From: Porphyromonas sp. COT-290 OH3588 | GTDB taxonomy: Bacteria > Bacteroidota > Bacteroidia > Bacteroidales > Porphyromonadaceae | Assembly: GCF_000769075.1 (NCBI RefSeq) | Contig: NZ_JRFC01000042.1 | Location: 19,147 to 64,124 of the forward strand | Direction: 5' to 3' | DNA: 44,978 bases | The notes under the pieces: model-generated | What the model saw: only the letters and a program-made list of their open reading frames with translations | Database searches by the model: none | Told to the model about the DNA's origin: nothing | Shown: one piece after another, positions 2,511 through 33,666 of the stretch | How positions within the stretch are numbered: position 1 is the first letter of the stretch | Layout: every line of letters starts with the position of its first letter | Program-made: the position numbers and the translations under genes

Positions 2511-2837
2511 AAATTGATGGGAACATTTTTTGGGATCGGTGGGATAATCCGCTATGATGTGTCCTACAATACCCCGAGATTGATGGGAAGAAAATCAGGC
2601 TATGGCGACACGAAAGTCTAGAAGTGTAGTACTATTATGTTTTATATTGTTGATAATTAGTGGCTTGCCTTTGGCTTGTTTTAGGTGACGATTTTCATGC
2701 CACTAGTAAGGAGGTCCCCAAAAAGAGGTTGGACGCAACCTAGAGCCTGCTAGGAGGCAAATACGAGGTCTCTGCTTTTGGGTAGCTACCTCCAGTGTTT
2801 CCCCATAAACATTTTGAAAAGTGAACGAAAATATAAA
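2511..2837 (-). repeat. Composite intergenic element, copy 1
   Basis: Module A, read on the minus strand, starts with TTCCCATCAATCT at 2589 and has a second TTCCCATCAATTT exactly 66 bp further on. Module B lies at 2756-2837 on the plus strand. It starts GGCAAATACGAGGTCT and ends GAAAATATAAA, 82 bp in all. The gap between modules is 166 bp. The central hairpin of module A is partly degraded here, with mismatches in the middle of the stem. Confidence 0.8.
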
Positions 2838-3081
2838 TTTGGCGGTATCGCCCAACTCGTCATCATAATGTGTAAATTGCAGGGGCAAACCATTATGATG
2901 TTCACTCGGTTGCGTGGACCTCTACCATGCAGCAAAGAGGGAGTACATCGGATAAGATAAGGCAATGTTTCGGCACTGTAAAGCGTTGTAGAGGCAAACC
3001 CTCGACTGTTTGGTATGGTTTTTGATAAGAGTTATACGCAGATCATGCGTGACAATAAATAGATAAGTTTCGACGTAAAAG

Positions 3082-5619
3082 ATGACATACAACTATACAA
3101 ACACCCTCCGTCTAGCTCTAGAGCTCACATACGCAGAGGCTCGACGGCTCGGGCGAGAGGAGATCAATCCCGACTTGCTTGTTTGGGGGATCCTCAAGCA
3201 GGGGCAAAATCGAGGCGCCAGTCTACTCAGAGATAGTGGGCTGGATCTGGAGGATTTGCTCGGCAAGATTAGCCATAGGCTCGAGGCTGACGATGAGGCC
3301 AATGGGCATTGGGAGCAGGAGCCCTCTCTGAGCCAGCTCTCACGCCGAGCGATTGCCCTATCTACTCGCCTAAGTCAAGAGCTTAGTGAGCAGGCTGTCA
3401 GTCCCTTGCATTTGTTGTTGGCAGTCCTCAGGACGGACAAGCACAGCTATCTCAATGAGGTGTTTATGTCCAAGTCTATCGACATACAGAGTCTACTAGC
3501 CCCTATTATGCGCTTCGATCAAGACGACTTCGACGAGGACGAAGACGAGCAAGAGGGAGAGAGTAGGGAGGTGTCGTCTACGACCTCGGCACCCGAGGCA
3601 CCGAGCAAGGGCAAGAGGCGAGGCGGAGATACCCCTACGCTCAACTCCTTTAGTCGAGATCTGACGGCTCTCGCAGAGGCAGGCAAGCTAGACCCCGTAG
3701 TTGGTCGTACAGCCGAGATCGAGCGTATGGTGCAGATCCTCTCTCGGCGTAAGAAGAGCAATCCCGCTCTGATTGGTGAGCCCGGTGTGGGTAAGACGAG
3801 CCTTGTGGAGGGACTGGCCCAGCGCATCATCGCTAGAGCTGTACCAACTAAGCTCCTCGGCCGCCGTATCCTAGAGCTGGATTTGGCCGCCATGCTCGCT
3901 GGCACCAAGTATCGTGGTCAGTTTGAAGAGCGCCTCAAAGCAATGATGAAGGAGCTGGAGGCTCACCCCGAGATCATCTTGTTTATTGACGAGATCCATA
4001 CGATGATGGGGGCTGGTGGTGGTGGCGGCACTATGGACGCTGCCAATATGCTCAAGCCCGCCCTCTCTCGTGGCGAGATCCAGTGCATCGGCGCCACTAC
4101 CCTAGGAGAGTACCGCAAGCATATAGAGAAAGATGGGGCTATGGAGCGACGATTCCAGAAGCTGATCGTGGAGCCCAATACTGCTACCGAGACACTCGAG
4201 ATACTCAAACAGCTACGTCCTCGGTACGAGGAGCACCACGGAGTGCACTATACCGATGAGGCGCTGGAGGTAATGGTAGACTTGGCGCAGCGCTATCTGA
4301 CAGATAGGGCCTTCCCCGACAAGGCAATCGACCTGATGGACGAGGCGGGGGCAAAGCTAAGCCAGACGATACTGCCTCCCAATAGTGAACTAGAGCAGCT
4401 GGAGCAGTCCAAGAAGCAAGCCATAGAGAGCAAGCTAGAGGCTATACGAGAGCAGAAGTTTGAGCTCGCCGCTAGCTACCGCAATCGTGAGCGTGAGCTG
4501 GAGGTGGCTATTGAGGCTGCACGAGATCAGTGGCGACGAGAGCTCTCCCAGATGCAGACCGATGTGACGGGCGAGCATATCGCCAGCGTCGTGTCTACGA
4601 TGACAGGTATCCCAGCAGAGCGTGTGAGTGGTGGCGAGCTAGAGCGTCTGAGGATACTAGAGCAGAAGCTCAAGGCCAGTGTCGTGGGGCAAGATGTAGC
4701 CATTGCCAAACTTAGTAAGGCTATCAGACGTAGCCGTCTGGGGCTAAGAGATGAGCATCGCCCTATTGGTAGCTTCCTGCTCCTTGGCCCTACTGGAGTG
4801 GGTAAGACCTATCTGGCCAAAAAGCTTAGCGAGGAGCTATTCGGTTCGAGCGAAGCGATGATACGTGTGGATATGAGCGAGTATATGGAGAAGTTCGCCG
4901 CTAGCCGTTTGGTGGGGGCGCCTCCCGGCTATGTCGGCTATGACGAGGGTGGTCAGCTCACCGAGCAAGTACGCCGTCGCCCCTACTCGGTGGTGCTTTT
5001 TGATGAGATTGAGAAGGCTCACCCAGATGTTTTCAATCTATTGCTACAAGTGATGGACGAGGGTGTCCTTACCGACAACGAGGGGCGTAAGATAGACTTC
5101 CGCAATACGGTAGTCCTTATTACCTCCAACGCCGGCTCTCGTGAGGCTAGAGCTTTCGGCCGTGCTATAGGGTATCAAGACGAACACGCCTCGACCAACC
5201 GCTCTGGCGATATTATGCGCAAGGCGCTTAGCAAGACCTTCAGCCCAGAGTTTCTCAATCGCTTGGACGATATTATTGAGTTCTCGGCACTTGACAAGGC
5301 TGCCATTCGTCAGATCGTCCAGCTTGAGCTCGATAAGGTGCGCAAGCGCCTCATTCATGCGGGCTATGATGTGCGAGCCGACGAAGCAGCCCTCGATGCG
5401 CTCGGTAGACTTGGTTATCAACCCGAGTATGGAGCTAGGCCACTGCGCCGCATCATACAGCAGGAGGTAGAGGACAAGCTGACCGACCTCATCTTAGATG
5501 GCGGAGCTACTTATGGCGATGTACTAGAGTTGAGCGTAGATGAGGCGGGAGGTATCGTCCATAGTATAAGTAAGTCAAGTAAATCTGCTCCCTGCGATGA
5601 AACAACCTCTGGTGAGTGA
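3082..5619 (+). CDS. clpC: ClpC-type AAA+ ATPase, Clp protease ATP-binding subunit
   Basis: This 845-residue protein has the ClpC layout. A double Clp N domain covers about 1-145 and an acidic linker about 148-165. AAA domain 1 has Walker [10 protein letters not shown] near 233 and Walker B LFIDEIH near 300. A UVR-like helical segment ([17 protein letters not shown]) lies near 455-475, and AAA domain 2 has GPTGVGKTY near 569. The UVR-like middle and short spacer favour ClpC over ClpB. In domain 2 an IGY sequence near 695 sits where ClpC proteins carry the IGF/VGF loop that docks ClpP, so partnership with ClpP is likely. It would unfold substrates for degradation in the cytoplasm. The 3' end overlaps the next gene by 23 bp, suggesting co-transcription with the ECF sigma factor. 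Confidence 0.92.
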
Positions 5620-6169
5620 AGAGCAACTACAGGAGATGCTTGCTGCCCTAGATACTAGGCGGCAAGCATTCTCTATGATAGTACAGATGTATAGCCAGCA
5701 GATCTACTGGCAACTCAGGCGTATGGTTTATAGTCATGAGGATGCCAATGATTTGGTGCAGAACACTTTTTTCAAGGCTTGGGAGGCGATAGACGGGTTC
5801 CGTGGAGATGCCAAAGTGTCTACATGGCTCTACCGCATTGCGCACTATGAGGCACTTAACTTCCTCAAGAAGCAGAACCGAGAGGGTGAGTGCTTCGTCG
5901 ATCTAAGCGATGAGGAGCGGGCTCGCTTCCTTATGGCTCGCCTACAGGCCGATCCTTACTTCGATGGCGACGAGTATGAGCAAGCCTTCCAGAGGGCTTT
6001 GGTGAGCTTGCCAGAGAAGCAGCAACTGGTCTTTCGCTTACGCTACTACGATGAGATGCCTTACGAGGAGATCGCTAGGATTACGGGTACGAGCCAAGGC
6101 GCACTCAAGGCCTCGTATCATCACGCCAGTCGCAAGATATCTGAGATGCTATCGAGGGAGGATCTTTAG
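5597..6169 (+). CDS. ECF-family RNA polymerase sigma factor
   Basis: This is a 190-residue sigma-70 family protein of the extracytoplasmic function type. Region 2 is seen in DLVQNTFFKAWEAIDGF and in the stretch ending VSTWLYRIAHYEALNFLKK. Region 4 is a helix-turn-helix with LPEKQQLVFRLRYYDEMPYE and IARITGTSQGALKASYHHA. There is no region 3, as expected for the family. The start lies inside the 3' end of clpC, in another frame, so the two are probably translated from one message. The two following genes encode a small membrane protein and a periplasmic protein, the usual neighbours of an envelope-stress sigma factor. The signal it answers is unknown. Confidence 0.9.
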   Translation: MKQPLVSEEQLQEMLAALDTRRQAFSMIVQMYSQQIYWQLRRMVYSHEDANDLVQNTFFKAWEAIDGFRGDAKVSTWLYRIAHYEALNFLKKQNREGECFVDLSDEERARFLMARLQADPYFDGDEYEQAFQRALVSLPEKQQLVFRLRYYDEMPYEEIARITGTSQGALKASYHHASRKISEMLSREDL

Positions 6170-6253
6170 CTTTGTAGTTAGTTGGTTAAACCTTGCTTCG
6201 TCTAGGTTGTCTATCCTAGTACAAACCCAATAGGAGCATTGAGCACTAGAGTA

Positions 6254-6646
6254 ATGGATATAAAAGAACAAAGTCATAAGCAGTACGATCTGCCCGAGGC
6301 CAAAGCCTCTCAAAAGCACTACACTACCCCAGACGGATATCTAGATGGTCTGGCGCAGCAGATTATGGCTGCTCTGCCAGAGCAAGAGGTGAGGCCTGCA
6401 CAGCGCGTCGGCTGGTGGGTCAAAGCCAAGCCAATCATCTATCTAGCGGCGAGCTTCGTAGGGCTGTACTACGGCTTCAAGGCAGTCAATTCATTTACCC
6501 CCGAGGCTCGAGTAGAGCAAGTCGCCCAGCAAGTGGCAGACGCAGGAGTACAGACAGAGGACGATTATTGGCTCTATCTACAAGACTACAGCGAGTCGCT
6601 CGGAGAACTTGAGTTCGAACCCACCCTTGAGGGCGAGCTAGACTAA
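6254..6646 (+). CDS. Small single-pass membrane protein, possible anti-sigma factor
   Basis: This 130-residue protein has a soluble charged N-terminal half, one hydrophobic segment near 60-80 (PIIYLAASFVGLYYGF) and an acidic C-terminal tail. I chose the ATG at 6254. The frame can also start at a TTG at 6239, five codons upstream, but AGGAG at 6232-6236 is too close to serve that codon. It resembles no family I can name with certainty. Its position directly after an ECF sigma gene and before a periplasmic protein gene suggests an anti-sigma role with a cytoplasmic N-terminus, but it has no recognisable anti-sigma motif. Confidence 0.7.
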   Translation: MDIKEQSHKQYDLPEAKASQKHYTTPDGYLDGLAQQIMAALPEQEVRPAQRVGWWVKAKPIIYLAASFVGLYYGFKAVNSFTPEARVEQVAQQVADAGVQTEDDYWLYLQDYSESLGELEFEPTLEGELD

Positions 6647-6676
6647 CGGAAAATCAACCACCAAAAACGAAAAGTA

Positions 6677-9204: not shown

Positions 9205-10382
9205 TATGGCGTATATCTATAGTGGAGTAATGCTGTTTTAAGTCGCCCAAGTATAAGCAGTGGCAACAGAAGGAATAGCAAGAGTGCGACGTAGTGAGGC
9301 CACGAATAGGCGAAGCCATAGCCATGCAATGCCTCGTCTACATAGATGAGGAAGTAATGGCGAAGAGGAAAAAGTATGCTGAGGGCCTGAATAGCGCCCG
9401 GCATAGCCATCACAGGAAACGAAAAACCAGATATGGATATTGAGATCATCCCCCATAGCGAAGCCAGACTGAGGCCAAGGCGTAGGGTAGGGAAGATCGC
9501 AATCATGACGATACCCAAGGCTTGTGAGGCTAAAATGAGGCATAGGGTAGCTAGAAGCATGGGGACAATGCCACTCTGGCAGGGAAAGCCTAGATAACCA
9601 TATAGGTAAACATTGTAGAGTATCCCCATGAGCATAAAGACAGCCGTCTGCGGGAGGAGCTTACCCGTGAGGGCTGTCGCGATGGAGCCATTGCTCGCCT
9701 CGAGCCAAGCCTTAGCCGTCCCTCCCTTGATCTCCATACCAATACCTGCCACAGTCACCATCATGATCAAGAGGCATAGCACTGCTGGTAGCAAGATGTT
9801 GGATAGATAGATCGAGTAGTTGAGCCACGGATTGCCTAATGCGTGCGTATCTATAACGATCGGGCGTAGATATGCCATAGCTTCGTCCTCGCTAGCCCCC
9901 TTGGCATAGAGTACTGACCGACTTGCAGCACCGGAGGTCAATTCTCCAAGCATCTTCATATCTCGGAAGAGCAGTGAGCCTGCGATGAGGTATGAGTAGT
10001 TGGTGTAGAAAGATACCGTTGGTTGCTTCTGCGTCTGTACCTCTGCGGATAGTCCCTCTGGCAGGAGGAAAAAGCCGTATATCTCCCCTCGCTGTACAGC
10101 TCTGCGAGCCTCGCTTACATTGGCGTAGTGTGCGATGACTTCGGTCTGTGGCATCGCATCTAGGTTGCGTGCCACACGTCTAGAGAGAGCAGTGTCGTCT
10201 AGGTCTACGATGCCTGCTGGCAAATTCTGCGGTAGCCCTTCGTCCATCAGTGTGGTGAAGAAGACGTAGCAGAATAGCGGAGCGATCACCATGCAGAATA
10301 GATACAGCGGCCGTGAGGTGAGAATCCTCCATTCACGCTGCATAACCTGCCATAGTGAGCTCCGAGTCTTGGTCGTGGACAT
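9204..10382 (-). CDS. ABC-2 type transporter permease (first of pair)
   Basis: This 392-residue protein is built like its neighbour, with an N-terminal membrane helix (YLFCMVIAPLFCYVFFTTL), a periplasmic region and a C-terminal block of membrane helices. The two are clearly related (both contain AVVVD or AGIVD-like segments followed by DAT/DAM PxxEV/TEV motifs) but diverged, suggesting a heterodimeric channel. It starts two bases after the hlyD stop and ends in the TAATG junction with the second permease. It is probably part of a drug or metabolite exporter related to YbhFSR; the specificity cannot be read from the sequence. Confidence 0.88.
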   Translation of the reverse strand: MSTTKTRSSLWQVMQREWRILTSRPLYLFCMVIAPLFCYVFFTTLMDEGLPQNLPAGIVDLDDTALSRRVARNLDAMPQTEVIAHYANVSEARRAVQRGEIYGFFLLPEGLSAEVQTQKQPTVSFYTNYSYLIAGSLLFRDMKMLGELTSGAASRSVLYAKGASEDEAMAYLRPIVIDTHALGNPWLNYSIYLSNILLPAVLCLLIMMVTVAGIGMEIKGGTAKAWLEASNGSIATALTGKLLPQTAVFMLMGILYNVYLYGYLGFPCQSGIVPMLLATLCLILASQALGIVMIAIFPTLRLGLSLASLWGMISISISGFSFPVMAMPGAIQALSILFPLRHYFLIYVDEALHGYGFAYSWPHYVALLLFLLLPLLILGRLKTALLHYRYTP

Positions 10383-11417: not shown

Positions 11418-12899
11418 TTATAGTACTCCCAATACCTTCTGTAGATATACGTCCGTGAGTTTGACCTCGATTTGTGCGTCTATCTTGCTTGAGTGAGCCG
11501 ATAGCCAAGCGGTCTGAGCCTCGAGTACGTTGCTCGTGGGGATCATACCCTCTTGGAAGCCAAGATTGGCATAGCGTAGGTTCTCCTCTGCTCGCTCCAT
11601 ATTCTTTAGGGCTAGAACTAGGCGCTTGTTGGCTTCTTTGACCTTCGATGCCGATTGAGCTACCTGTAGCTCGATCTTATCTCGAGCGCCCGAGAGGCGT
11701 AGGTCTGCGATGCGTGCCTCTGCCTTGGCGGCTCTTACCTTGTAGTAGCCTTGTCCCCAGTGCCAGAGTGGCACTTTGAGCATGATGCCTACGTTCCACA
11801 TACCGTCAAACTTATTCTGGAAACCATTGAAAACCGAGGGGTTAATTACGATATAGTTGCCTACTAGTGCTAGCGATGGGAGATGCTCCGATCGGGCGAT
11901 ATTGACCTTTTGCTTGTAGATCTGTGTTGCCAGACTTAGGCTCTTGAGTTCCGATCTATTGGCTAGAGCTGTCTGCACGTTGATCTCGGTGTCGAAGCTG
12001 GAGAGGCGAATATCCTCCATATTTTCGTCTGCTAGGCGTATCGGACTGTCTAGGCTGATGCCACACAGCTGGCAGAGTAGCATACGTGATAGGCTAAGAC
12101 CGTCCTCTACCTTGGCCAGATTCATTTCGGCTTCATTGACCTTGACCTTGACGGAGAGCAAATCTGCCTTGGTTGCCACTCCCTCGGCTACTAGATGCGT
12201 TACGTCTTGCTCTAGTTTTTGTAGCAGTTTGTAGTAGTCCTCTGCCAACTTCTTCTTGTTGGATAGAGAGATAACCTGCCAGTAGGCCTGATCGGTACTG
12301 AGGATCACCTCTGCCATATCTGCCTTTTGCTGCTCGTGAGCAAGCGCCTCGGCGTAGCGTGTTATTTTGTTGTATGCACGTATCTTGCCTCCCATATATA
12401 TAGGCTGAGTCAGGGTAAGCACTCCTGCATATATGTTGCGTGTATCGGTGCGAGAGTCCTCGACGATCGAAGCCCCCAGCTGATTGAGCTCTGGGGCTAA
12501 TGCCCCTGCGATGAGCTGCTGTGCAGGGCCGAGTAGGGGCATTAGCTCCGGGTGCTTCATCAATATACCCTTGAGGCGTGGGTCGTGTGCCATTTGCCCC
12601 AGCCTGCCAGCTAGGGTAGTCCCTAGGGTTGATAGGTTGTGCTTCTGTTCGTGGCTGAGCAGTACCGTCTCCTTTTGGTTGTGCATGTACGAGCCAGTAG
12701 CCGTGAGGCTAGGGAGGTAGTTGGTCAGGGCTGCTTTGCGCTCATTGCGGGCGGCTTCGATTTTCTCCTTGGCGATGCTCAGCTCTTTGTTATGCTCGAG
12801 GGCTAGTTTTCGGCAACTATCGGCAGTTAGCTCTTGCTGGGCGTGGCCTATCGAAGCTGTACATAGCCCAATCCCTAGGGCGATGATACTTCTTTTCAT
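11418..12899 (-). CDS. TolC-family outer-membrane efflux protein
   Basis: This 493-residue protein has a signal peptide (MKRSIIALGIGLCTASIGHA). Two related halves of the outer-membrane efflux family follow, each with long Ala/Glu/Lys-rich helices (LALEHNKELSIAKEKIEAA at the start, NLRYANLGFQEGMIPTSNVL towards the end). A GVLTLTQPIYMGGKI strand marks the first beta section. It leads the operon tolC-hlyD-permease-permease and would form the outer-membrane duct. A possible promoter and palindromic operator lie about 100 bp upstream. Confidence 0.92.
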   Translation of the reverse strand: MKRSIIALGIGLCTASIGHAQQELTADSCRKLALEHNKELSIAKEKIEAARNERKAALTNYLPSLTATGSYMHNQKETVLLSHEQKHNLSTLGTTLAGRLGQMAHDPRLKGILMKHPELMPLLGPAQQLIAGALAPELNQLGASIVEDSRTDTRNIYAGVLTLTQPIYMGGKIRAYNKITRYAEALAHEQQKADMAEVILSTDQAYWQVISLSNKKKLAEDYYKLLQKLEQDVTHLVAEGVATKADLLSVKVKVNEAEMNLAKVEDGLSLSRMLLCQLCGISLDSPIRLADENMEDIRLSSFDTEINVQTALANRSELKSLSLATQIYKQKVNIARSEHLPSLALVGNYIVINPSVFNGFQNKFDGMWNVGIMLKVPLWHWGQGYYKVRAAKAEARIADLRLSGARDKIELQVAQSASKVKEANKRLVLALKNMERAEENLRYANLGFQEGMIPTSNVLEAQTAWLSAHSSKIDAQIEVKLTDVYLQKVLGVL

Positions 12900-13007: not shown

Positions 13008-13337
13008 GTGGTTTTTACGGAATAAAAAACTTTTTTGTATTTATGTGCATCTCTCTTCTTCCCCTAGTAGCTTATCTTGGGGGAGGGGCATTAGTGCTAT
13101 GTCCCCTAGATCGCCTTGTGTGGGTTGAGGGTGCAAGGGACCAAGGTGGGCGTTTGGGAGCCAATAGCTCTCTTGAGCGCTGTGCCTAAACGAGTAAATA
13201 CTTGCAGCCTACAAGCCCCTATCCCTATAATCTAAGTGCTATAATATCCCTCCGAGCCTATACAAGTTTAGATAAAATTTACCCTGATATGGTATGTCTT
13301 TGGAGGTAAAACTATGCGGTATTTGTGTATGGCTGGA

Positions 13338-13664
13338 TTTATATTTTAGACCAGTTTTCAGAATGTTGATGGAGTAGTTCCAAATTGACAGAGCAAATAA
13401 GGGTAGGCGTCGCATTTGCCCCCTAGGAGGCTCCGTATTGCCCTCTAGGTGGTTTGCGCACTTAGCCCTCGTTTGGCCTAGATCGCTTGATGTGGAGGTT
13501 CTTTTTAATGTTTTGATTTTCAGTGTTATGTAGTTGGTTCTTGGGGTGAGTACCTGCATTGATGGCTCAATTTTGCATTTTTCTTCCCATCGATCTTCTA
13601 GGATTGGTGGGCACACCCTTGGAGATTAACCCATCAATCTCCAAAAATCTTCCCATCAATCTTG
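13338..13664 (+). repeat. Composite intergenic element, copy 2
   Basis: Module B runs on the minus strand at 13338-13420 (83 bp, with rc start GGCAAATGCG and end AAAATATAAA). After a 163-bp spacer, module A runs on the plus strand from 13584. TTCCCATCGATCT at 13584 and TTCCCATCAATCT at 13650 are 66 bp apart. The hairpin arms at 13602-13611 and 13630-13639 pair over 10 bp with one G-T wobble. This is the best-preserved copy. Confidence 0.85.
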
Positions 13665-13828
13665 TTTGCTTGTCAGGTTTGGCTAATATACTCTTCCGCT
13701 CTTTGCATTCAATTCTTAGGTGATACGTTTACAGACCTTAACATTATTGGAGTAGGGTCGGAAGGAGGGATTGGATTTTAATTTTGTGTATATGATGCGC
13801 TTTTGTAGTGTATTTTTAATGTTTTTGA

Positions 13829-13898: not shown

Positions 13899-15839
13899 AT
13901 GAAGAGAATCTTTACTAGCTTTCTGGCGCTGTTCCTTGCATCTAGTGCAGCTTTTGCGCAGAAGCAGAGCGTTAATAGCTCTGATGGGTTTGAGCTCAAG
14001 GCTCAAAATGTCAAGATCCCCGTTGTTACACAAGCGGCTGGGGAGCGTTATTTCGGTTATGCAGACGCAGATGTTGCCGATATTGCATACGTAGGTACTG
14101 GTCGGCCTATGGTTATCGCTGAGGCGATTAAAATCTCAGCGATGGGAGGGAATCAACTCAAGAAGATTCGTTTCAATAGCGGTCAAGAAGTTGATGGTAC
14201 TATTTTCGTCCTATCTGCTAGTACGAACCAGCTCAAGTATGTCGAGAAACTTGCAGTCAAGAAAGGCTGGAATGATGTTGCTTTGAGTACGCCATTCACA
14301 ATGGCTAACAATGAAGAGTACTACATCGGCTACCAAGTCAATGCAGCTGCCGATCCAAGACCTCTTGCCTTTGACAATAAAGTAGATCAGACCGCTCCCG
14401 GAGCTAATGTGATCATTTTCAGTAATGGCCTCTTTGACATGGCTACACCTCTTGTTGGTAGAGATGCCTTGCTTGATCTAGATGCAGCTGGTCTGAATTT
14501 TGGTAATGCCATGATTTTCCTTGAGATTGATGACAAGGTATCGGCGCTAGACAATGTTGCTTATGTGACCAAGCTTTCTCTTATTTCATCTGGGGATTTA
14601 GCTCCTAATACAGAAGCCAAGATTAAAGCTACCGTACGCAACGTAGGGTTTAAGCCACTTACAAGTCTTACTTTTACTACCAAGAGAAGTGCCAAATCTC
14701 CAGAAGTAGAGCAAAAAATAGGAGGGCTAAACATTGCTAAGGCTTCTACCGCAGAGGTGGAACTAAAAATCAATACGGTAGCTCGTGGTATAGCTTTGGC
14801 ATCTGCTAAGCTAGTCAAAGCTAATGGCAAGCCTTCTTGGTTCAGCAATCAGCCTCTATTGCCTTATCGTGTTGTTACACCTAATGGTGAAGCCAAGAGA
14901 ACAACAATGCTTATCGAGCGTTTTACCACAGAGAAGTGCCCCAACTGTCCTAAAGTGGATCAGCCTCTTGCGGAGATGACACAGCAGCTACAAGGTTTCG
15001 GTATAGATGTCAGCTTCATTGCTCATCACTCTGGCTATCATACCGACTTCTTGACTGTCAATGAGTCTATAGAGCTCTTGCCATACGCTTTCAACAAGCA
15101 GAATCGTACGTACGCTCCTGCGTTCATGTTCAATCGTTTCCCAAGCCTTGACCCAACTAAGGACAATGGTGCCGAGCTAGCTTCTCTAGAAACTATGGAA
15201 GAGAGAGCTAATGCCGTACTTGCTTCTCCAGAACCCGTACAGTTTAGCCGTTATGCCAAGGTAGAGAAAGACGGTAAGGTCGCTCTCGAGGTAGAGGGCG
15301 TTACAGGTTATGTAGACCTAGACAACCTATATCTGACAGCTGTGATCACAGAGGACGGTATTACTGCTAAATCTCAAGCTGGTGCACCAGCTGGATATAT
15401 CCACGACGGTGCGGCTAGAGTATTCATGACACCTGCCCTAGGTAAAATGATTATTCCTAAAGCCGATGGTTCGTTCAAGATCACAACCGATGCAGTGGAA
15501 ATCGACTCCGAGTGGAAGACCGAGAAGATGAAGATCGTATTCTTCGTTCACAAGAATATGGCATCTCCTCTGATCAATCAGCGACAGGTATATTCGTCCA
15601 AGACTATGGCCTTCAACAACTCAGGCTCGGCCGAGCAGCTACTAGGTGCACAGGCTCCTCGTATCTACGATCACGACGGATATCTCGTGGTTGATACCGA
15701 TGTATCGGAGCTCGCTATCTATGACCTAGCTGGTCGCCTTGTAGGTAAGTCTGCGGACCGCAAACTAGCCAAGGGCGTGTATGTAGTTAAGGTAACCAAT
15801 ACCTATGGTACATTTACTCAGAAGGTAATCGTAGACTAG
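13899..15839 (+). CDS. Omp28-like thioredoxin-fold surface protein with T9SS sorting domain
   Basis: I place the start at 13899, giving 646 residues with a signal peptide (MKRIFTSFLALFLASSAAFA). The middle has an Omp28-type domain starting near 335 (MLIERFTTEKCPNCPKVDQP). Its CPNC motif (Cys347, Cys350) looks like a thioredoxin-like redox pair. The last 75 residues form a type A T9SS sorting domain, with a VVDTDVSELAIYDLAGRLVG region and a KGVYVVKV stretch ending KVIVD. The protein is therefore probably exported through the type IX system and fixed to the cell surface. The N-terminal 300 residues look like beta-sandwich modules. The promoter and downstream terminator indicate a single-gene unit. 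Its substrate or binding partner is unknown. Confidence 0.85.
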   Translation: MKRIFTSFLALFLASSAAFAQKQSVNSSDGFELKAQNVKIPVVTQAAGERYFGYADADVADIAYVGTGRPMVIAEAIKISAMGGNQLKKIRFNSGQEVDGTIFVLSASTNQLKYVEKLAVKKGWNDVALSTPFTMANNEEYYIGYQVNAAADPRPLAFDNKVDQTAPGANVIIFSNGLFDMATPLVGRDALLDLDAAGLNFGNAMIFLEIDDKVSALDNVAYVTKLSLISSGDLAPNTEAKIKATVRNVGFKPLTSLTFTTKRSAKSPEVEQKIGGLNIAKASTAEVELKINTVARGIALASAKLVKANGKPSWFSNQPLLPYRVVTPNGEAKRTTMLIERFTTEKCPNCPKVDQPLAEMTQQLQGFGIDVSFIAHHSGYHTDFLTVNESIELLPYAFNKQNRTYAPAFMFNRFPSLDPTKDNGAELASLETMEERANAVLASPEPVQFSRYAKVEKDGKVALEVEGVTGYVDLDNLYLTAVITEDGITAKSQAGAPAGYIHDGAARVFMTPALGKMIIPKADGSFKITTDAVEIDSEWKTEKMKIVFFVHKNMASPLINQRQVYSSKTMAFNNSGSAEQLLGAQAPRIYDHDGYLVVDTDVSELAIYDLAGRLVGKSADRKLAKGVYVVKVTNTYGTFTQKVIVD

Positions 15840-15918
15840 AACTTGCATAAGCTCTCTGGGGCCGCCTCTACAATCATTGAGATGTAAGGAAGGCGAGGAG
15901 AGTAGCGCAATGAATATA

Positions 15919-15957
15919 GGGGCTGTGGCAAATTAAATTTTGTTCACAGCCCCTTTT
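15919..15957 (+). terminator. Terminator of the Omp28-like gene
   Basis: A GGGGCTGTG stem (15919-15927) pairs with CACAGCCCC (15945-15953), with a 17-nt A/T-rich loop, followed by TTTT. It lies 80 bp after the stop codon. Confidence 0.8.
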
Positions 15958-16387
15958 CTGTGCATCAGAATGCTCAGAATACAAAGATTGTGTCCGTTGA
16001 GAGTAGAGCGGTGTTTGCTCTAGCTATGCCGAGGCGAGTAGTCGTATACAGAGCGTGGTAGGATCGAGCACAGCATACCCGAGTAGGTGTCACCTTGAGC
16101 CGAAGCCGAACTCCGTGCAGAGCTTGTGGTACAAGCAACTTGAGCCGTTGGGGTATTAGAGGTAGCGCCGTATTGACCTGAGCAGAGATGAGCAAGAGGC
16201 AGAGGATTGGTGTGGCATAACCTCTACCGACTACACCTATATGAGACTCATTGTGCAATAGTCTCTAGATTTAGAACACGTAGTCAACAACTTGAAAAAG
16301 AGCATAGGCTTACGCAGAACCTATCAGTAGTATTAGATAACAAATAACTAAAAACGAGCCAAACAACCCCAAATTCAGGAGTTAATT
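15958..16387. other. Intergenic region before the small-ORF/lipoprotein unit
   Basis: About 430 bp between a terminator and the next promoter. A minus-strand frame at 15974-16258 has no signal, no known motif and an unusual composition, so I do not call it. No tRNA fold or repeat family member was recognised. Confidence 0.6.
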
Positions 16388-18760: not shown

Positions 18761-18827
18761 ATTGATAATCACCAAGAAAAAAGGAGAGCTCTTTTCGAGC
18801 TCTCCTTTTTTCTTGGTGATTATCAAT
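18761..18827. terminator. 31-bp perfect inverted repeat after the lipoprotein gene
   Basis: Bases 18761-18791 and 18797-18827 are perfect reverse complements with a 5-nt TTTTC loop. It starts four bases after the stop codon and probably ends transcription. Runs of A and T lie inside the stem rather than after it, and the stem is unusually long for a simple terminator. Confidence 0.75.
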
Positions 18828-23197: not shown

Positions 23198-24991
23198 ATG
23201 GACAACCTAAAAAACATTCAGCCCGTTGCAGACTTCAACTGGGATGAGTTCGAAAAAGGACAGAGCATTTGCCCTGTATCTATCGAAGAACAGGCTAAGG
23301 CCTACGAAGGTACGCTGAGCAACGTCAAGGAAAACGAAGTTGCTATCGGTACTGTAACTAAGATCGGTAAGCGTGAGGTACTCGTGAACGTTGGCTTCAA
23401 GAGCGAAGGTTCTATCTCAGCTTCTGAGTTCCGCTACAACCCAGACCTGAAGGTGGGTGACGAAGTAGAAGTATTCGTCGAAAGTCAGGAAGACAAGAAA
23501 GGTCAGCTAATCCTAAGCCACCGCAAGGCTCGTGCTGCTCGCTCTTGGGATCGCATCAACGAAGCCCTTGAAAAGGACGAAGTTATCAAGGGTTACGTTA
23601 AGTGCCGCACGAAGGGTGGTATGATCGTAGACGTATTCGGCATCGAAGCATTCCTCCCCGGTTCACAAATCGACGTTCGTCCTATCCGCGACTACGATGC
23701 TTATGTAGACAAGACTATGGAGTTCAAGATCGTGAAGATCAACCACGAGTTCCGTAACGTAGTCGTTTCTCACAAGATCTTGATCGAGGCAGAGCTAGAA
23801 GCTCAGAAGGCCGAGATCATTGGCAAGCTCGAGAAGGGTCAAGTTCTCGAGGGTGTCGTTAAGAACATCACAAGCTATGGTGTATTCATTGACCTTGGCG
23901 GCGTAGATGGTCTTGTACACATCACAGATCTCTCTTGGGGACGTGTAGGCCACCCAAGCGAAGTGGTAGAGCTAGACCAGAAGCTCAACGTGGTTATCCT
24001 AGAGTTCGACGAAAACAAGAAGCGTATCGCTCTTGGTCTGAAGCAGCTCATGCCACATCCATGGGATGCCCTAGATCCTAACCTCAAGGTTGGAGACAAA
24101 ATCAAGGGTAAGGTAGTGGTTATGGCTGACTACGGCGCATTCGTAGAGGTAGCACCCGGTGTAGAAGGTCTAGTACACGTGTCTGAGATGTCTTGGACGC
24201 AGCACCTACGTACCGCTCAGGACTTCCTACATGTTGGTGACGAAATCGAAACTGTAATCCTAACACTTGACCGCGAAGATCGCAAGATGAGCCTAGGCCT
24301 CAAGCAGCTCAAGGAAGATCCATGGGCTGGTATTGAGGAGCGCTTCCCAGTTGGTTCACGCCACAAGGGCCGTGTACGCAACTTCACCAACTTCGGTGTA
24401 TTCGTAGAGATCGAGGAAGGTGTGGATGGTCTTGTACACATCAGCGACCTCTCTTGGACGAAGAAGATCAAGCACCCTGGAGAGTTTACAGAAGTTGGTG
24501 CAGAGATGGAGATCCAAGTTCTTGAGATCGACAAGGAAAACCGTCGCCTAAGCCTTGGTCACAAGCAGTGTGAAGAGAACCCATGGGATGTATTCGAAAC
24601 TATCTTCAAGACTGGTTCTGTCCACGAGGGTACAATCATTGAGCTCCTAGAGAAAGGAGCTGTGGTAGCACTTCCTTATGGTGTAGAAGGCTTTGCAACG
24701 CCTAAGCACCTCGTTAAGCAAGACGGTACTCAGGCGGCTCAGGGCGAGCAGCTCGAGTTCAAGGTAATCGAATTCAACAAGGACTCTAAGCGTATCATCG
24801 TTTCTCACAGCCGTGTATTCGAAGATGCTCAGAAGGCCGAGAGCCGTGCAGCTGAACGTGCTGAGCGTGGCGAAGCTAAGCGCAAGGAAAGCAACACTGC
24901 AAGCGCTGTAGCTAGCAACAACGCTTCTAGCGAAAAGGCTACACTTGGTGACCTCGATGCTCTGGCAGCACTCAAGGAGAAGCTCTCTTAG
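23198..24991 (+). CDS. rpsA: 30S ribosomal protein S1
   Basis: This 597-residue protein consists of six S1-type RNA-binding domains in tandem. Their recurring signatures include VKNITSYGVFIDLGGVDGLV, MADYGAFVEVAPGVEGLVH and RNFTNFGVFVEIEEGVDGLV. The N-terminal two are more divergent, and the final 45 residues form a charged Ala/Glu/Lys/Ser tail. S1 binds mRNA at the small subunit. In this phylum, where Shine-Dalgarno sites are weak or absent, S1 is thought to matter strongly for start-site selection. It is flanked by its own promoter and terminator. Confidence 0.96.
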   Translation: MDNLKNIQPVADFNWDEFEKGQSICPVSIEEQAKAYEGTLSNVKENEVAIGTVTKIGKREVLVNVGFKSEGSISASEFRYNPDLKVGDEVEVFVESQEDKKGQLILSHRKARAARSWDRINEALEKDEVIKGYVKCRTKGGMIVDVFGIEAFLPGSQIDVRPIRDYDAYVDKTMEFKIVKINHEFRNVVVSHKILIEAELEAQKAEIIGKLEKGQVLEGVVKNITSYGVFIDLGGVDGLVHITDLSWGRVGHPSEVVELDQKLNVVILEFDENKKRIALGLKQLMPHPWDALDPNLKVGDKIKGKVVVMADYGAFVEVAPGVEGLVHVSEMSWTQHLRTAQDFLHVGDEIETVILTLDREDRKMSLGLKQLKEDPWAGIEERFPVGSRHKGRVRNFTNFGVFVEIEEGVDGLVHISDLSWTKKIKHPGEFTEVGAEMEIQVLEIDKENRRLSLGHKQCEENPWDVFETIFKTGSVHEGTIIELLEKGAVVALPYGVEGFATPKHLVKQDGTQAAQGEQLEFKVIEFNKDSKRIIVSHSRVFEDAQKAESRAAERAERGEAKRKESNTASAVASNNASSEKATLGDLDALAALKEKLS

Positions 24992-25057: not shown

Positions 25058-25418
25058 ATCTCCCTCTCCCCCGATCTATACTCTACACTCCTATCAAGCG
25101 CCGCATACTACATTCACGTGCGGCATATCACAGAGTTTTACTAGTAGATGATACGTTTGATCGTACTCGAAATCTCAAATCTCGATAACCTACTCCAACA
25201 CAAAGCATCTCGGATGAACCAAAACTAATCCTCTAACACAGAAAATTTCACACCACATATCTAAGTAAAATACTCACACATAAGATCATTAAATTGCGGT
25301 TTAATCAAGCTAAAGAGCAAGGAGAATTTCATCTTTTATGTTAATATTCGCAAACGAACTCTCCTCTAATCGGGGGACAAAAGAAGGCAATAATCTAGGA
25401 TTACTCCACGCAGGGAAT

Positions 25419-25743
25419 GAAATTGGGGGAGAGATTTTTTCTAATCCTAGGACTAATCTACTAAGATCTACCCACCAATACGGAGAAATTGAAGGAGAGA
25501 AATACTCGAGAATACTCTTCAAACATGTAAAACCATCTAGACAAACTACCTAAACTACTCTATACAAACGACTTACAAAAACCTCTTCTAGAGAGATATT
25601 TTGGCCCGACTGGGGCTAACAGCCCAAACTTGGGTAGAGGTGCTAGAAGGCCTCTAAAAGGGCAAATACGAGGTCTGCTATTTTTCAACCACTCCCGCCT
25701 AGATCTTCTCATCAACATTCTGAAATGTGAGCTAAAATATAAA
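25419..25743 (-). repeat. Composite intergenic element, copy 3
   Basis: Module B on the plus strand at 25661-25743 is well preserved (83 bp, GGCAAATACGAGGTCT to AAAATATAAA). Module A on the minus strand is degraded but keeps the spacing: AAATTGGGGGAGA at 25420 and AAATTGAAGGAGA at 25486 are again exactly 66 bp apart, and the gap to module B is about 164 bp. The hairpin of module A has lost its pairing. Confidence 0.65.
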
Positions 25744-25854
25744 CTACGAGTCTTTGAGCTCAGCCCCGCTAGATAAGCAAATATCTTCGCAGTACCTCCT
25801 ATTTCGAAACACTATCTGGACGACTTGCGCCCCATGTTTTTGTACTAAAGATAG

Positions 25855-25899: not shown

Positions 25900-27099
25900 A
25901 TGACTCAAGTCAATGACCTAACCCCGGGCCGTAAAGCGATTGTAGGGGTTCAGTATCTATTCGTTGCGTTTGGCGCAACAGTACTCGTACCTCTACTGGT
26001 GGGTCTAGACCCATCAACAGCACTTTTCTCCGCCGGTATCGGCACACTCATCTTTCATCTAGTTACCAAGGGGAAAGTCCCTATCTTCCTTGGCAGTAGC
26101 TTTGCCTTCATCGCTCCCATCAAGAGTGCGACCGAGCTGTACGGTCTGAGTGGTGCTCTATTCGGCATACTCGGAGTAGCACTGGTTTATATATTGATGT
26201 CCCTGCTGATTAGATCGTTTGGGATTAAGTTCATCACACGACTCTTCCCTCCCGTAGTCATCGGGCCAATCATTATGCTTATCGGGCTATCGCTCTCTAG
26301 TGCGGCTGTCGGTATGGCAGCCTCCAACTGGGTTCTGGCCATCATTGCCCTCTCCGTGGCAATCGCTGTGACTCTCTACGCTCGAGGTATCCTCAAGCTC
26401 ATACCTATCTTCTGTGGTATCATCGCAGGCTATTTGGCCGATCTGATCTTCTTCGACGTAGACCTTTCGCCTATCGCTGCGGCCGAATGGTTCTCTCTCC
26501 CTCAGCTCATCTTGCCCGAACGTCTGATGTGGGAGCCAATTCTCTTCATGATCCCCGTGGCCATAGCCCCCGTCATCGAGCACATCGGTGATGTGTATGT
26601 CGTCAATAGTGTCGCACACCGCAACTTCGTACAAGACCCGGGGCTACACCGCACCATGCTAGGTGATGGGCTGGCGTGTCTATTCGCATCTCTCATCGGT
26701 GCTCCTCCCGTGACGACTTACTCCGAGGTTACGGGAGCTATGTCATTAACCAAGGTTACGGACCCAGTGGTGCTACGCATCGCAGCTATCACGGGGATTG
26801 TCTTCTCGATGGTAGGTAAGGTTAGTGCCCTACTCAAAAGTATTGACCCTGCCGTACTCGGCGGTATTATGCTACTTCTTTTCGGGACAATCGCTGGGGC
26901 AGGTATCAACAACTTACTACACAGCAAGGTCAATCTTGGCAGCTCACGCAACGTGGTAATCATATCCGTTACCCTAACAACCGGTATCGGTGGTGCTGTA
27001 CTGCAGATGGGGAACTTCACGCTCGCTGGCATTGGGCTCTCAGCCATCGTAGCGGTCCTACTCAACCTCATTTTACCTCAACCCAATGAAGAAGCATAA
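25900..27099 (+). CDS. uraA: Uracil/xanthine permease of the NCS2 family
   Basis: This 399-residue protein has about 12-14 membrane segments and the NCS2 nucleobase-cation symport signatures. These include an N-terminal QYLFVAFGATVLVPLLVG, the FLGSSFAFIAPI segment and VIEHIGDV, whose His and Glu line the nucleobase site in UraA. A PPVTTYSEVTGAM element near 267 corresponds to the second half of the binding site. It would import uracil with protons across the inner membrane. It leads a three-gene set with an outer-membrane channel and a purine permease. Confidence 0.9.
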   Translation: MTQVNDLTPGRKAIVGVQYLFVAFGATVLVPLLVGLDPSTALFSAGIGTLIFHLVTKGKVPIFLGSSFAFIAPIKSATELYGLSGALFGILGVALVYILMSLLIRSFGIKFITRLFPPVVIGPIIMLIGLSLSSAAVGMAASNWVLAIIALSVAIAVTLYARGILKLIPIFCGIIAGYLADLIFFDVDLSPIAAAEWFSLPQLILPERLMWEPILFMIPVAIAPVIEHIGDVYVVNSVAHRNFVQDPGLHRTMLGDGLACLFASLIGAPPVTTYSEVTGAMSLTKVTDPVVLRIAAITGIVFSMVGKVSALLKSIDPAVLGGIMLLLFGTIAGAGINNLLHSKVNLGSSRNVVIISVTLTTGIGGAVLQMGNFTLAGIGLSAIVAVLLNLILPQPNEEA

Positions 27100-29277: not shown

Positions 29278-29331
29278 ATAGGAGGACAGTCTATTTAATC
29301 AGGTTGCCGAACTTGCTCTGTCGCCCTTAGA

Positions 29332-30996: not shown

Positions 30997-31067
30997 AAGC
31001 ATCGATTTTTATATAATGAATGTTTGCTAATAATTGACGTATAACAGCCCTAAAGATACAAAGAAAA

Positions 31068-31189
31068 GAGATGCGCTAGAGGTCATAAACGGCCGAACTC
31101 CCTCTAGCGTCAAGGCTATATCCTGCACAAAAGTACATTCCAGCAGCCTTCACCTTGAGAGTTGGCATATACGCCCCCTAGCGCATCTC
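31068..31189 (-). promoter_or_regulatory. Overlapping inverted repeats, possible attenuator or terminator
   Basis: On the minus strand there are three mutually related segments. The last, CTAGCGCATCTC (31079 to 31068), can pair with the first (GAGATGCGCTAG, 31189 to 31178) over 12 bp. An overlapping CCTCTAGCG (31082 to 31074) can pair with the middle CGCTAGAGG (31109 to 31101) over 9 bp. A T-rich run follows. It lies after the small barrel gene and before the dipeptidase gene. Confidence 0.4.
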
Positions 31190-31254
31190 AATTAAGTAGC
31201 CTCGCTGAATGTGGTAAGCGATACTACGATGATGCTTGAGATCTACTCTAGAGG

Positions 31255-31734
31255 CTAAAACTTTAGCCCCAGAGAAATCGAAATATTGTGCAAACGGTTA
31301 TTCCCTTCGTGAAATAGGAAATACTCATCTAATCCTATCCCCACATAGAACGGATCCATTAGCTTGAATTTAAGACCGCACTCAACCCTTAGATATGGAG
31401 CCTCAAGACGATTCCCTAACCAATATCCTGCCCCTAGATTGCTATACAAAGAATAGAAATGGTTATCTCCTTGAGGGAACTCATACCCGAAATATGCCCC
31501 GAGATGCGAAACATCTTCAAACCTCTGAACTCCGATAACCATACCCAGACGGTAGTTAGACTTAATCTTCCAGTCCGAAGACAGGAGATTATAGCTACCT
31601 CCTAAGGGAGAGTTATACAGAGAAGTTAAACGAACATCAAACTTCTTGACGGAAGAAGACGGATTAGCAGCTACGGCAGAACTCGAAAGGACAAGCATCG
31701 TAGCTAATAGCCACAGCAATACCTTATTTCTCAT
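31255..31734 (-). CDS. Small outer-membrane beta-barrel protein
   Basis: This 159-residue protein has a signal peptide (MRNKVLLWLLATMLVLSSSAVA). The rest alternates polar and aromatic residues in short beta strands (NYRLGMVIGVQRF, SHLGAYFGYEF, FYSLYSNLGAGYWLGNR). It ends with strand ISISLGLKF, whose terminal Phe is the usual signal for barrel assembly. About eight strands fit, as in OmpA/OmpW-size barrels. No specific family or ligand can be named. It stands alone between rimO and the dipeptidase gene. Confidence 0.75.
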   Translation of the reverse strand: MRNKVLLWLLATMLVLSSSAVAANPSSSVKKFDVRLTSLYNSPLGGSYNLLSSDWKIKSNYRLGMVIGVQRFEDVSHLGAYFGYEFPQGDNHFYSLYSNLGAGYWLGNRLEAPYLRVECGLKFKLMDPFYVGIGLDEYFLFHEGNNRLHNISISLGLKF

Positions 31735-31875
31735 AATTCTTTTTCTAGTTGAATTAAAGACGAAAGTTTAATGTGCATGCCTATTGAAAAGTACATTACC
31801 CACAAAACTCTACGGTCAAAATTAAACATAAAAAGCGAATTAGAGAAATAATAATCTGATACTGAAATTGAAAAC

Positions 31876-33189
31876 TTACCTATTAACCACTCGACCGTAT
31901 AGGTCGAAGATGTCGGCGGAAGTAATCTCGACGGGGTAGAACTCCCCTACTTGGAGCGTAGGTGTCCCGTCGGTATGCTTGATTAGTACCTCTTGATCGA
32001 CCTCTGGCGAGTCAAATTCGGTACGCCCAATGTAGTATTCGCCCTCTTGTCTATCAATTATGGTACGCAGAGTCTGCCCGATCTTCTGGGCATTAAGCTC
32101 TGTGGCGATGCCTTCCTGTACACGCATCAGCTCGTTGATACGCTCCTGCTTGACCTCTAGAGGGATATTATCCTCATAGTGCTTATAAGCATAGGTTCCC
32201 TCCTCGTGCGAGTAGACGAAAGCACCTAGACGATCGAAGCGAATATCACGGACGAAGTCGAGCAATTCGGCGAAGTCTTGCTCCGTTTCGCCGGGGTGCC
32301 CTACAATCAAGGTCGTACGCAGGTGCAGATTTGGGACCTCTGCCCTCATCAGGTGCAGCAGATCGTAGGTTTCGGCCTTAGTAGTACCACGGCGCATCGC
32401 CTTGAGCATTGGGTCACTGATGTGCTGCAAAGCGATATCCATATACTTACATACGTTCTCCCTCTCTCTGATGACGCGTAGAATATCTCTAGGGAAGGCA
32501 TTCGGGTAGGCGTAGTGCAAGCGAAGCCAATCCAAACCATTGATATCTGATAGACGCTCGACCAGCTCGGGTAGCTTATGCTCTTTGTATAGATCTAGCC
32601 CATAGTAGGTCAGATCTTGTGCAATGAGCTGAACCTCTCTGACGCCTCCGTCTACCAGAGTTTGTGCCTCCTTGATGATATCCTCGATGCTGCGTGAGCG
32701 ATGTTTACCCGTACTGATGGGGATAGCGCAGTAGGAGCAAGTGCGATCGCACCCCTCAGATATCTTGAGGTAGGTATAGTGACTAGGTGTGGTGATGCTT
32801 CTATTACCTCCCATAGGATCGTTGTAGTAGGCTTTACCAAGGTCGCTAATGAGCTTCTTCCAGTTAAACTTGCCATAGTAACCGTCTACCTCTGGGATCT
32901 CTGCCTTGAGTTCGTCCATGAAACGCTCGGTCAAGCAACCCATTACATACACTTGACCTACCTTGCCACGCTTCTTACTCTCAACGATATTCAAGATCAT
33001 ATTGATCGACTCCTCTTGTGCATCTTTGATGAAGCCACAAGTATTGATCACTACGATCTCTCCGTCTATAACATCGGCGTTGTGCTGTACTTTGTAACCA
33101 TTGGCCAAGAACTGGCGAATTAGGTGCTCGCTGTCTACCAAGTTTTTGGAGCAGCCGAGCGTAATCATATCTACTTGATTTTTTCTCAT
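31876..33189 (-). CDS. rimO: Ribosomal protein S12 methylthiotransferase RimO
   Basis: This 437-residue radical SAM enzyme has the methylthiotransferase N-domain. Its three cysteines lie in TLGCSKNLVDSE, NTCGFIKDA and VMGCLTERF. The radical SAM motif is EGCDRTCSYCAIP near 148. A GHPGETEQDF segment and a C-terminal TRAM domain ending FDLYGRVVNR follow. GCSKN and the TRAM sequence favour RimO over MiaB. It adds a methylthio group to the conserved aspartate of ribosomal protein S12. A separate -7 box lies about 75 nt upstream. Confidence 0.94.
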   Translation of the reverse strand: MRKNQVDMITLGCSKNLVDSEHLIRQFLANGYKVQHNADVIDGEIVVINTCGFIKDAQEESINMILNIVESKKRGKVGQVYVMGCLTERFMDELKAEIPEVDGYYGKFNWKKLISDLGKAYYNDPMGGNRSITTPSHYTYLKISEGCDRTCSYCAIPISTGKHRSRSIEDIIKEAQTLVDGGVREVQLIAQDLTYYGLDLYKEHKLPELVERLSDINGLDWLRLHYAYPNAFPRDILRVIRERENVCKYMDIALQHISDPMLKAMRRGTTKAETYDLLHLMRAEVPNLHLRTTLIVGHPGETEQDFAELLDFVRDIRFDRLGAFVYSHEEGTYAYKHYEDNIPLEVKQERINELMRVQEGIATELNAQKIGQTLRTIIDRQEGEYYIGRTEFDSPEVDQEVLIKHTDGTPTLQVGEFYPVEITSADIFDLYGRVVNR

Positions 33190-33261
33190 CTACCGTTATT
33201 GTGAAACAAAAGACCCAAATCGCTCCCGAAGCGACTCGGATCTTGCCATAAATATTAGGTG

Positions 33262-33269
33262 CAAAGATA
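33262..33269 (-). promoter_or_regulatory. -7 box for rimO
   Basis: On the minus strand it reads TATCTTTG, about 75 nt before the rimO start. The -33 region is poor. Confidence 0.4.
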
Positions 33270-33339
33270 TCATAAATCTACCAGAGCTAGGAGCTTTTTC
33301 CTATTCTGAGGAACAGCCACTCTGGGATTATCAACAAAA

Positions 33340-33666
33340 ATTTACACCTCTGATGATGTTTTGGCTCACTACAAATAGCTATCTCGAACTCTGCCGGCCA
33401 AAGAGCTCACTGCTTATTTGCCCTCTAGAAAGCCCTAGATTGCATTTACCTCTATTGAGGCCTCTTTCCTCAGCTAACCTCAAATAAAGGGCTTAAACGA
33501 GGCCTTTATAAATAGCTAATAACTAAACAAATACACTGAACAATCAGAGATGAGCATAGGCTTTCGGGGCAGTTTGGAGCATTTCTTCCCATCAATCCTC
33601 TCCGATTGTAGGACTAACCTCAAGCGATGTTACCTACGATCGCCAGAAGTCTTCCCTTCAATCTCA
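33340..33666 (+). repeat. Composite intergenic element, copy 4
   Basis: Module A is well preserved. TTCCCATCAATCC at 33586 and TTCCCTTCAATCT at 33652 are 66 bp apart. Hairpin arms at 33604-33612 and 33633-33641 pair over 9 bp with one wobble. Upstream, the end of a degraded module B (TTTGCC, 33417-33422) lies 163 bp away, exactly as in copy 2. The rest of module B is poorly conserved, so its left limit is uncertain. Confidence 0.7.

Follow-up and report, generated by a model that had tools for sequence, protein, structure and literature searches.

The window analysed here, a whole stretch of 44,978 nucleotides from Porphyromonas sp. COT-290 OH3588 (contig NZ_JRFC01000042.1), carries four copies of a dispersed intergenic element that occupies at least about 148 places in its 2.29 Mb genome (G000), where the copies are spaced more evenly than random placement gives. 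Each copy has a core which opens with an array of four boxes in 22-bp steps, the copies in this genome avoid gaps between convergent genes, a sister species shares their positions whilst its boxes differ as a set, and other members of the genus carry unrelated box families on the same 22-bp plan. We infer from the sequence, and tentatively, that the arrays are regularly placed binding sites for a chromosome-organising protein whose specificity drifts between clades, a reading that we consider quite possible, if short of probable.

Copy number and anatomy of the element

The initial annotation had proposed four intergenic copies of one element, in both orientations, and both the search and the profile scores confirm them where they were placed, with cores refined to 2511-2838 (+), 13337-13662 (-), 25420-25744 (+) and 33340-33664 (-). 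A profile built from 35 copies, including these four, scores window copies 1-4 at 210.6, 178.7, 175.1 and 155.4 bits (E 1.8e-62 to 1.4e-45). BLAST of G000 with copy 1 returned at least 53 matches (40 of 157 first-look candidates scored). A genome-wide profile search had been named as the test that could overturn the proposal; when the best 150 of 634 first-look candidates were scored with the sequence-only 35-copy profile, all 150 were significant (E 1.9e-75 to 2.1e-12), and the description as a dispersed, multi-copy intergenic element matching no known family is upheld. We count at least about 148 places, rather than 150, because two matches on contig C32 (C numbers denote contigs of G000) adjoin another match and repeat model positions; a few of the places are fragments at contig ends. 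Two elements on C32, at about 100.85-101.26 kb and 111.41-111.82 kb, have a partly doubled left box module, from which it follows that box arrays can expand locally. A local nhmmer search of 385 kb of contiguous G000 sequence (the window and 17 stretches of 20 kb) found 16 copies, all of them already listed, so the copy list looks near complete in this sample.

Mean column identity across the 35 copies is 70%, and the spacing is kept despite this decay, as had been proposed: 64 of 87 copies could be aligned at both ends and their cores span 325-329 bp (326 bp in 30 copies, 327 in 18, 325 in 11, 328 in four and 329 in one), the remaining 23 having a right end that is truncated or too degraded for alignment. 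The earlier length of about 325 bp therefore holds for the core, whilst the whole element reaches about 424 bp owing to a conserved left extension of about 97 bp (alignment of 86 copies). The right end is sharp, with no conservation beyond it in the 87-copy alignment.

In element orientation, the first 84-88 bp of the core consist of four 22-bp units. The motif first seen repeated at 66 bp is real (with up to three mismatches, three occurrences in the window vs. none in 100 shuffles; the copy at 25420 is further diverged and lies outside the three-mismatch limit) but it was incomplete, as the 66 bp separate boxes 1 and 4 of the four units. Averaged over 87 copies, self-match in positions 1-88 is highest at a lag of 66 (0.594), followed by 22 (0.413), 70 (0.408) and 44 (0.382), with an overall mean of 0.263; two segments taken from these copies as controls stay at or below 0.347. 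When dyad symmetry is averaged, peaks stand close to the four box centres (10.0, 31.5, 53.5 and 76.5) and midway between boxes (42.5 and 64.5), which suggests an 11-bp phasing. By eye, box 3 is inverted relative to the other boxes, and the right half holds a further inverted motif copy near its end. A comparison of the two element ends by eye, left ATTTTTCT vs. right end on the other strand ATTTATATTTT, gave a weak similarity. The window copies are laid out as follows.

2414..2838, plus strand: copy 1, whole element, with a left extension of about 97 bp and a 327-bp core (237 bits in the first search, 210.6 bits by profile)
2511..2594, plus strand: copy 1, four boxes in 22-bp steps (2511-2528, 2533-2550, 2555-2572, 2577-2594), from self-match at lags 22, 44 and 66 in 87 copies
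2711..2838, plus strand: copy 1, right half from the alignment, including what was earlier called module B and the sharply bounded right end AAAATATAAAT
13337..13759, minus strand: copy 2, whole element, between divergent genes 11418-12899 (-) and 13899-15839 (+)
13579..13662, minus strand: copy 2, four boxes (13645-13662, 13623-13640, 13601-13618, 13579-13596)
25323..25744, plus strand: copy 3, whole element, between codirectional genes 23198-24991 (+) and 25900-27099 (+)
25420..25503, plus strand: copy 3, four worn boxes (25420-25437, 25442-25459, 25464-25481, 25486-25503)
33340..33761, minus strand: copy 4, whole element, worn and the lowest-scoring of the four, between genes 31876-33189 (-) and 33812-34918 (-)
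33581..33664, minus strand: copy 4, four boxes (33647-33664, 33625-33642, 33603-33620, 33581-33598)

The left extension of copy 4 overlaps, by eye, a terminator-like hairpin.

Spacing and gene context

Copies in G000 scoring above 80 bits define 121 within-contig intervals with a mean of 14.1 kb, a median of 12.8 kb and a minimum of 3.5 kb. Over nine contigs (105 intervals) the coefficient of variation (CV) is 0.52, vs. 0.95 when copies are placed at random (minimum 0.71 in 10,000 simulations), and three intervals fall below 5 kb where 30.2 are expected. A null restricted to long non-convergent gaps (54 in the 385 kb) gave a CV of 0.90 (lowest of 5,000 simulations 0.66), with 27% of intervals below 5 kb. 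Copies beyond the best 150 scored would make the spacing look less even, not more. Spacing this regular shows that the arrays are held apart and well spread by some factor. The largest hole in the map, 68.5 kb on C6, was read over 60 kb (466-526 kb, loci L158-L160, L numbers denoting sampled loci) and contains a Bacteroides-type conjugative transfer operon, with TraG, TraJ, TraM and TraN above cut-offs and a ParA-like gene below cut-off; L159, in the same hole, also has a weak, below-cut-off match to a defence-type DNA methyltransferase model.

Gene orientation around the copies was assessed from open reading frames (ORFs) passing a codon score, a procedure in which start codons are approximate. 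Within the 385-kb sample, an element is present in 9 of 22 divergent gaps, in 7 of 194 codirectional ones and in none of 28 convergent ones (divergent vs. convergent, P 0.0002), and among gaps longer than 300 bp 9 of 18 divergent vs. 0 of 10 convergent (P 0.007); with 9 of 22 occupied, a rule by which every divergent gap holds an element is ruled out. For 93 sampled copies with both neighbours called, at least one place among them lying in two overlapping stretches, 55 contexts are divergent, 36 codirectional and two convergent. A random 40 places (>100 bits, drawn from the 107 outside the first 43) gave 25 divergent, 12 codirectional and one convergent, with two missing one neighbour, so the divergent excess is no bias of the first 43 copies. 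Neighbouring genes are 5′-adjacent in 150 cases and 3′-adjacent in 40, and the distance from the right end to the next gene start ranges from <100 to >1,000 bp.

Called ORFs overlap 2 of 87 copies, and the window copies all fall outside called genes; a mechanical ORF at 13239-13616 that overlaps copy 2 fails the codon-usage score. The genes beside the window copies are of mixed function: an AAA/Clp ATPase, an outer-membrane efflux protein, an S1-domain protein, a permease and a radical-SAM enzyme.

Several other intergenic features were seen in the same sequence. A perfect 31-bp inverted repeat with a 5-bp loop at window positions 18761-18827 lies just past the gene ending at 18756 and is terminator-like. 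A hairpin family of the form GGGGCTGTGnCAAAA..TTTTGnCACAGCCCC occurs in intergenic gaps of G000 (window 15918-15962; L161, L162, L165, L166 and L170-L172) and looks like a shared terminator or small repeat. At L003 (2792-2973) a tRNA comes immediately after the Bacteroidales small signal recognition particle RNA, with an element copy about 1 kb away, and at L165 (2367-7069) near-identical repeated stretches, one with an internal N, are possibly collapsed assembly repeats.

Positions and boxes across the genus

Among the 26 genomes of the genus that were compared, the family is found only in G000 and the sister species G023, with 63 of 63 scored candidates significant in each. The single match in G009 (20.8 bits, E 2.1e-4) is treated as chance, and no match was found in 16 genomes from other families of the order under stricter filters.

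A syntenic G000 copy was found at 12 of 21 distinct G023 loci (23 element loci, among which two locus pairs are identical), two of the 12 on flank matches shorter than 150 bp; with the flanks of 87 of the ~148 G000 copies compared, this is about what near-complete conservation of position would give. The aligned part of the flanking DNA is 73-93% identical between the two species. Alignments of orthologous elements are least gapped across the boxes (4.5 gap columns per 100), followed by the remainder of the core (8.5-9.6), the left extension (16.8) and the flanks (34-39), and identity is 64.6% in the boxes, 61.2% in the middle and 76.9% in the right part. The box consensus differs as a set between the two species: box 1 reads AAATTGAtGGGaAGA in G000 (87 copies) vs. 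AAAAaCTCT.AGaG in G023 (20 copies), and box 4 AGATTGATGGGAAGAAA vs. AGATTAGTGCAGAGAAA. Box identity is 72.9% within G000 and 82.1% within G023 (where copies were sampled by best score or by pattern match, so that the internal figure may be inflated); across the two genomes it falls to 67.5% for orthologues (10 pairs) and 65.4% for non-orthologues, on a shuffled baseline of 60% with many gaps. The right part is more alike between orthologues (79.6%) than between paralogues of G000 (69.5%), though not more so than between those of G023 (81.6%). Ranked over the whole core among 62-65 G000 copies, the orthologue stands at 10, 1, 2, 3, 49, 4, 34, 12, 11 and 47, so some vertical signal remains. One G023 locus, L080, has one flank matching either L037 or L015 of G000 and the other flank matching the other, placing a rearrangement border at or near the element.

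Two further species without this family, G011 and G020, were sampled blindly (10 stretches of 20 kb each). G011 carries ~90-bp arrays of four symmetric boxes with the core GAGGGATATCCCTC at a ~22-bp step, 24 of them in 200 kb, and G020 carries eight-box arrays, composed of three CCACGTGG, two TTCCTCCGAAG and three CCACGTGG boxes, also symmetric and at a ~22-bp step, 11 of them in 200 kb. In a whole-genome search the G020 family occupies at least 127 distinct places among the matches listed for G020. It also gave at least 104 matches in G018, 108 in G012, 120 in G001 and 107 in G017 (101 candidates scored per genome, the counts including both-strand repeats), with two weak matches in G015 and none in the other 20 genomes. 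The G020 places, among those same matches, are spaced with a CV of 0.53 vs. 0.99 (lowest of 20,000 simulations 0.73), with five intervals below 5 kb vs. 31.8 expected and 3-8 arrays per 100 kb all round the chromosome; the 15 intervals available within the 20-kb samples of G011 give 0.40 vs. 0.80 (P 0.0006). Three unrelated families are thus evenly spaced.

Visual inspection of samples revealed arrays of other boxes in G003 (GACCAGTACTGGTC), G009 (ATCTATATATAGAT), G041 (TATATA-centred) and G014 (GACCTACGGTAGGTC), and a three-box TATATAC pattern (≤3 mismatches) has 185 matches in G041 vs. 29 for the reversed control. Boxes of the GTATATAC type at ~22 bp, resembling those of G041, also stand in G000 (L162 ~3798-4054 and L163 ~3566-3804), and a separate G000 array at L167 (~9874-9958; C13 ~134.9 kb) consists of four palindromes centred on AGACGTCT, spaced by exactly 22 bp and different from the boxes of the element itself; one genome holds several array types. 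A conventional MITE-like family (miniature inverted-repeat transposable element) with GAGACTGTTGCAAAAGTC ends and no array occurs in G022 (L182-L185) and, in similar form, in G020 (L148, L154).

A sequence-blind test compared the lags between palindromic centres in intergenic DNA with shuffled sequence, odd centres giving the same picture. Pairs 21-23 bp apart numbered 12 vs. 0.1 in G020, 13 vs. 0.2 in G003, 4 vs. 0.2 in G009 and 4 vs. 0.0 in G041, and more weakly 3 vs. 0.3 in G011 and 3 vs. 0.6 in G000. A thin sample of three families outside Porphyromonadaceae gave one, zero and one palindrome pairs at 22 bp.

Known families and readings of the arrays

Several known systems bear some likeness to the element. 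REP/BIME arrays with RAYT transposases, known from enterobacteria and pseudomonads, are likewise extragenic, numerous and clade-specific, with palindromic units in short arrays, and the element does consist of extragenic arrays of units, which are, however, only weakly palindromic. It differs in its 22-bp boxes (loopless in other clades), its avoidance of convergent gaps, its even spacing and the lack of a Y1/RAYT gene: PF01797 had no match in G000 or G023, whilst 5 of 14 control genomes were positive. A RAYT-driven REP system in this genome is out on that absence. The sites of Noc, SlmA and MatP and parS are palindromic dimer sites across the chromosome which act on its architecture or on division, a role that the present arrays might share; those arrays, however, hold a fixed four or eight sites at 22 bp, are spaced evenly at 7-17 kb and have their boxes replaced between clades. 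Sites of a second ParB are out, as G000 has no ParB paralogue (ParB_N, PF02195, matched once in G000 and in 24 of 26 genomes, with none in G016 and four in G017). The BOX elements of Streptococcus pneumoniae are modular too, with ~100 or more intergenic copies, but vary in the number of middle modules, and we know of no even spacing in them. Within Porphyromonas, the description of BrickBuilt presents a P. gingivalis MITE with 19 copies, a 23-nt repeat unit and IS5-type terminal inverted repeats (PMC4596501). It resembles the element in genus, intergenic location and repeat-unit length and differs in its copy number and terminal inverted repeats; the brick consensus AGAYCATARTATCCTCTCRTRTG has no match in the window at ≤3 mismatches, which puts BrickBuilt out.

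The part of PMC5771137 on intergenic repeats covers BrickBuilt and MITEs, dispersed repeats >500 bp and clustered regularly interspaced short palindromic repeats (CRISPRs), with the word 'tandem' absent there; Porphyromonas goes unmentioned in the accessible text of PMC12306157, and nothing describing such arrays was found in the portions of the open PMC full-text literature that the search returned, a scope outside which subscription journals and preprints fall. A promoter reading of the two ends was also tried. Bacteroidetes promoters have a -7 box, and no consistent -33 partner was seen by eye.

If the arrays are binding sites for a chromosome-organising protein, each element would be a docking array for a sequence-specific DNA-binding protein acting chromosome-wide. 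Four sites (eight in one clade), one per 22 bp or about two helical turns, would bring several protein units onto almost one face of the helix, where they could nucleate a larger complex, and a step of two helical turns repeated over four or eight boxes is as expected of a cooperative DNA-binding protein. With some 150 arrays at intervals of about 13 kb, most of them in long gaps where genes start, the chromosome would then have evenly spaced anchor or loading points, possibly as borders of supercoiled loops or as start points of a spreading protein. As the specificity of the protein drifted, boxes at many positions would change together, leaving each clade with a box of its own while the 22-bp plan stayed as it was. 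Boxes that changed while their positions stayed fixed fit such drift, or conversion between copies. That a protein binds the arrays, that one protein family serves all the box families and what role it has, we infer from these patterns. The broader proposition, that Porphyromonas chromosomes are tiled every ~7-17 kb by 22-bp-phased sites of a rapidly drifting architectural protein, with positions and geometry inherited and the recognition sequence replaced at many positions together, is one that we put forward with greater doubt.

Several observations weigh against a chromosome-organising protein. The element is itself an imperfect example of the plan: its boxes in the window copies are weakly palindromic (1-6 of 9 pairs), averaged dyad symmetry has off-plan peaks at 69.0 and 35.5, and the right half (201-327) is conserved although it lies outside the 22-bp plan. 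All three G000 palindrome pairs come from the separate L167 array and the element adds none, so its 22-bp plan rests on the lag self-match and the dyad averages, and the 22-bp step is the one thing linking it to the palindromic families. No 22-bp signal appeared in the lag test for G022, G002, G008 and G014 (the boxes of G014 being seen by eye only). Gene context is laxer in G020 (17 divergent, 10 codirectional and two convergent of 29 arrays) than in the family of G000, and convergent gaps are not avoided in G011 (7, 12 and 4 of 23). That unrelated families share gene neighbourhoods is no more than suggested (pooled 11/21 vs. 11/40, P 0.051; G011 [[6,4],[5,14]], P 0.085; G020 [[5,6],[6,15]], P 0.28); a looser count of 7/27 vs. 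5/101 included low-identity paralogues and is not relied on. Y1 genes are present in G020 and G011 (PF01797 was positive in 3 of 26 genus genomes, these two and G012), so their families could have a REP-like origin. The single ParB_N match leaves no Noc-like candidate in G000, and no protein binding the arrays was identified. Finally, spacing with a hard core is also what target immunity would produce.

The last point belongs to a different explanation, in which the copies are relics of a non-autonomous mobile element, the boxes being transposase sites at one end and target immunity keeping the copies apart. The Tn7 right end has four 22-bp transposase sites in ~90 bp and Tn7 shows target immunity, a likeness in which asymmetric sites would suit the weak symmetry of the element's own boxes; the many intergenic copies in both orientations and the sharp right end without conserved flank point the same way. 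We nevertheless regard this origin as unlikely. The best target-site duplication at any boundary tested was present in 3 of 64 copies; new insertion does not account for positions that G000 and G023 share despite boxes altered as a set; unrelated families reach similar density and evenness; and the boxes of G011 and G020 are symmetric. The mobile, non-autonomous element of the initial annotation is weakened by the first two of these whilst immunity spacing stays compatible with it; a simple MITE is out on the same two grounds. A search for Mu-transpos_C (DDE transposase) had no match in the 26 genus genomes, and none in 14 control genomes either.

It is improbable, in our view, that the arrays are operators of one large regulon, with a global transcription factor binding four sites upstream of the gene starts of ~150 operons. 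The 150 5′-adjacent vs. 40 3′-adjacent genes and the preference for divergent gaps over codirectional and convergent ones would suit it, but the even chromosome-wide spacing is not predicted by it, the window neighbours are functionally mixed and the distance to the gene start varies more than tenfold. Of the possibilities first raised for the element, regulators in the sense of protein-binding sites nonetheless come closest, the even spacing favouring a chromosome-scale role over an ordinary regulon. A dispersed structured RNA or untranslated-leader family, despite the constant length, the orientation bias towards gene starts and the conserved right half, is very improbable, and with it the functional RNA of the initial annotation: Rfam 15 gave no match at the gathering threshold in the window and none over the elements in eight loci at E up to 5, the 35-copy consensus folds at -2.1 kcal/mol into 7 pairs, not one of them compensated, and the palindromes of the other-species families are loopless.

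Tiling by the sites of a rapidly drifting architectural protein, if that is what the arrays amount to, would make them comparable to a fast-evolving centromere sequence distributed along an entire bacterial chromosome. Long-range regular spacing, here present in unrelated families of related species, was a property that we did not find in the open papers searched, and we know of no repeat or binding-site family that has it. Domains of bacterial chromosomes are on a scale of ~10 kb; should the arrays mark the borders of loops or serve as loading sites, they would give a sequence-defined handle on what sets that scale. The genus would further serve as a natural experiment on joint changes of specificity in a protein and ~150 of its sites.

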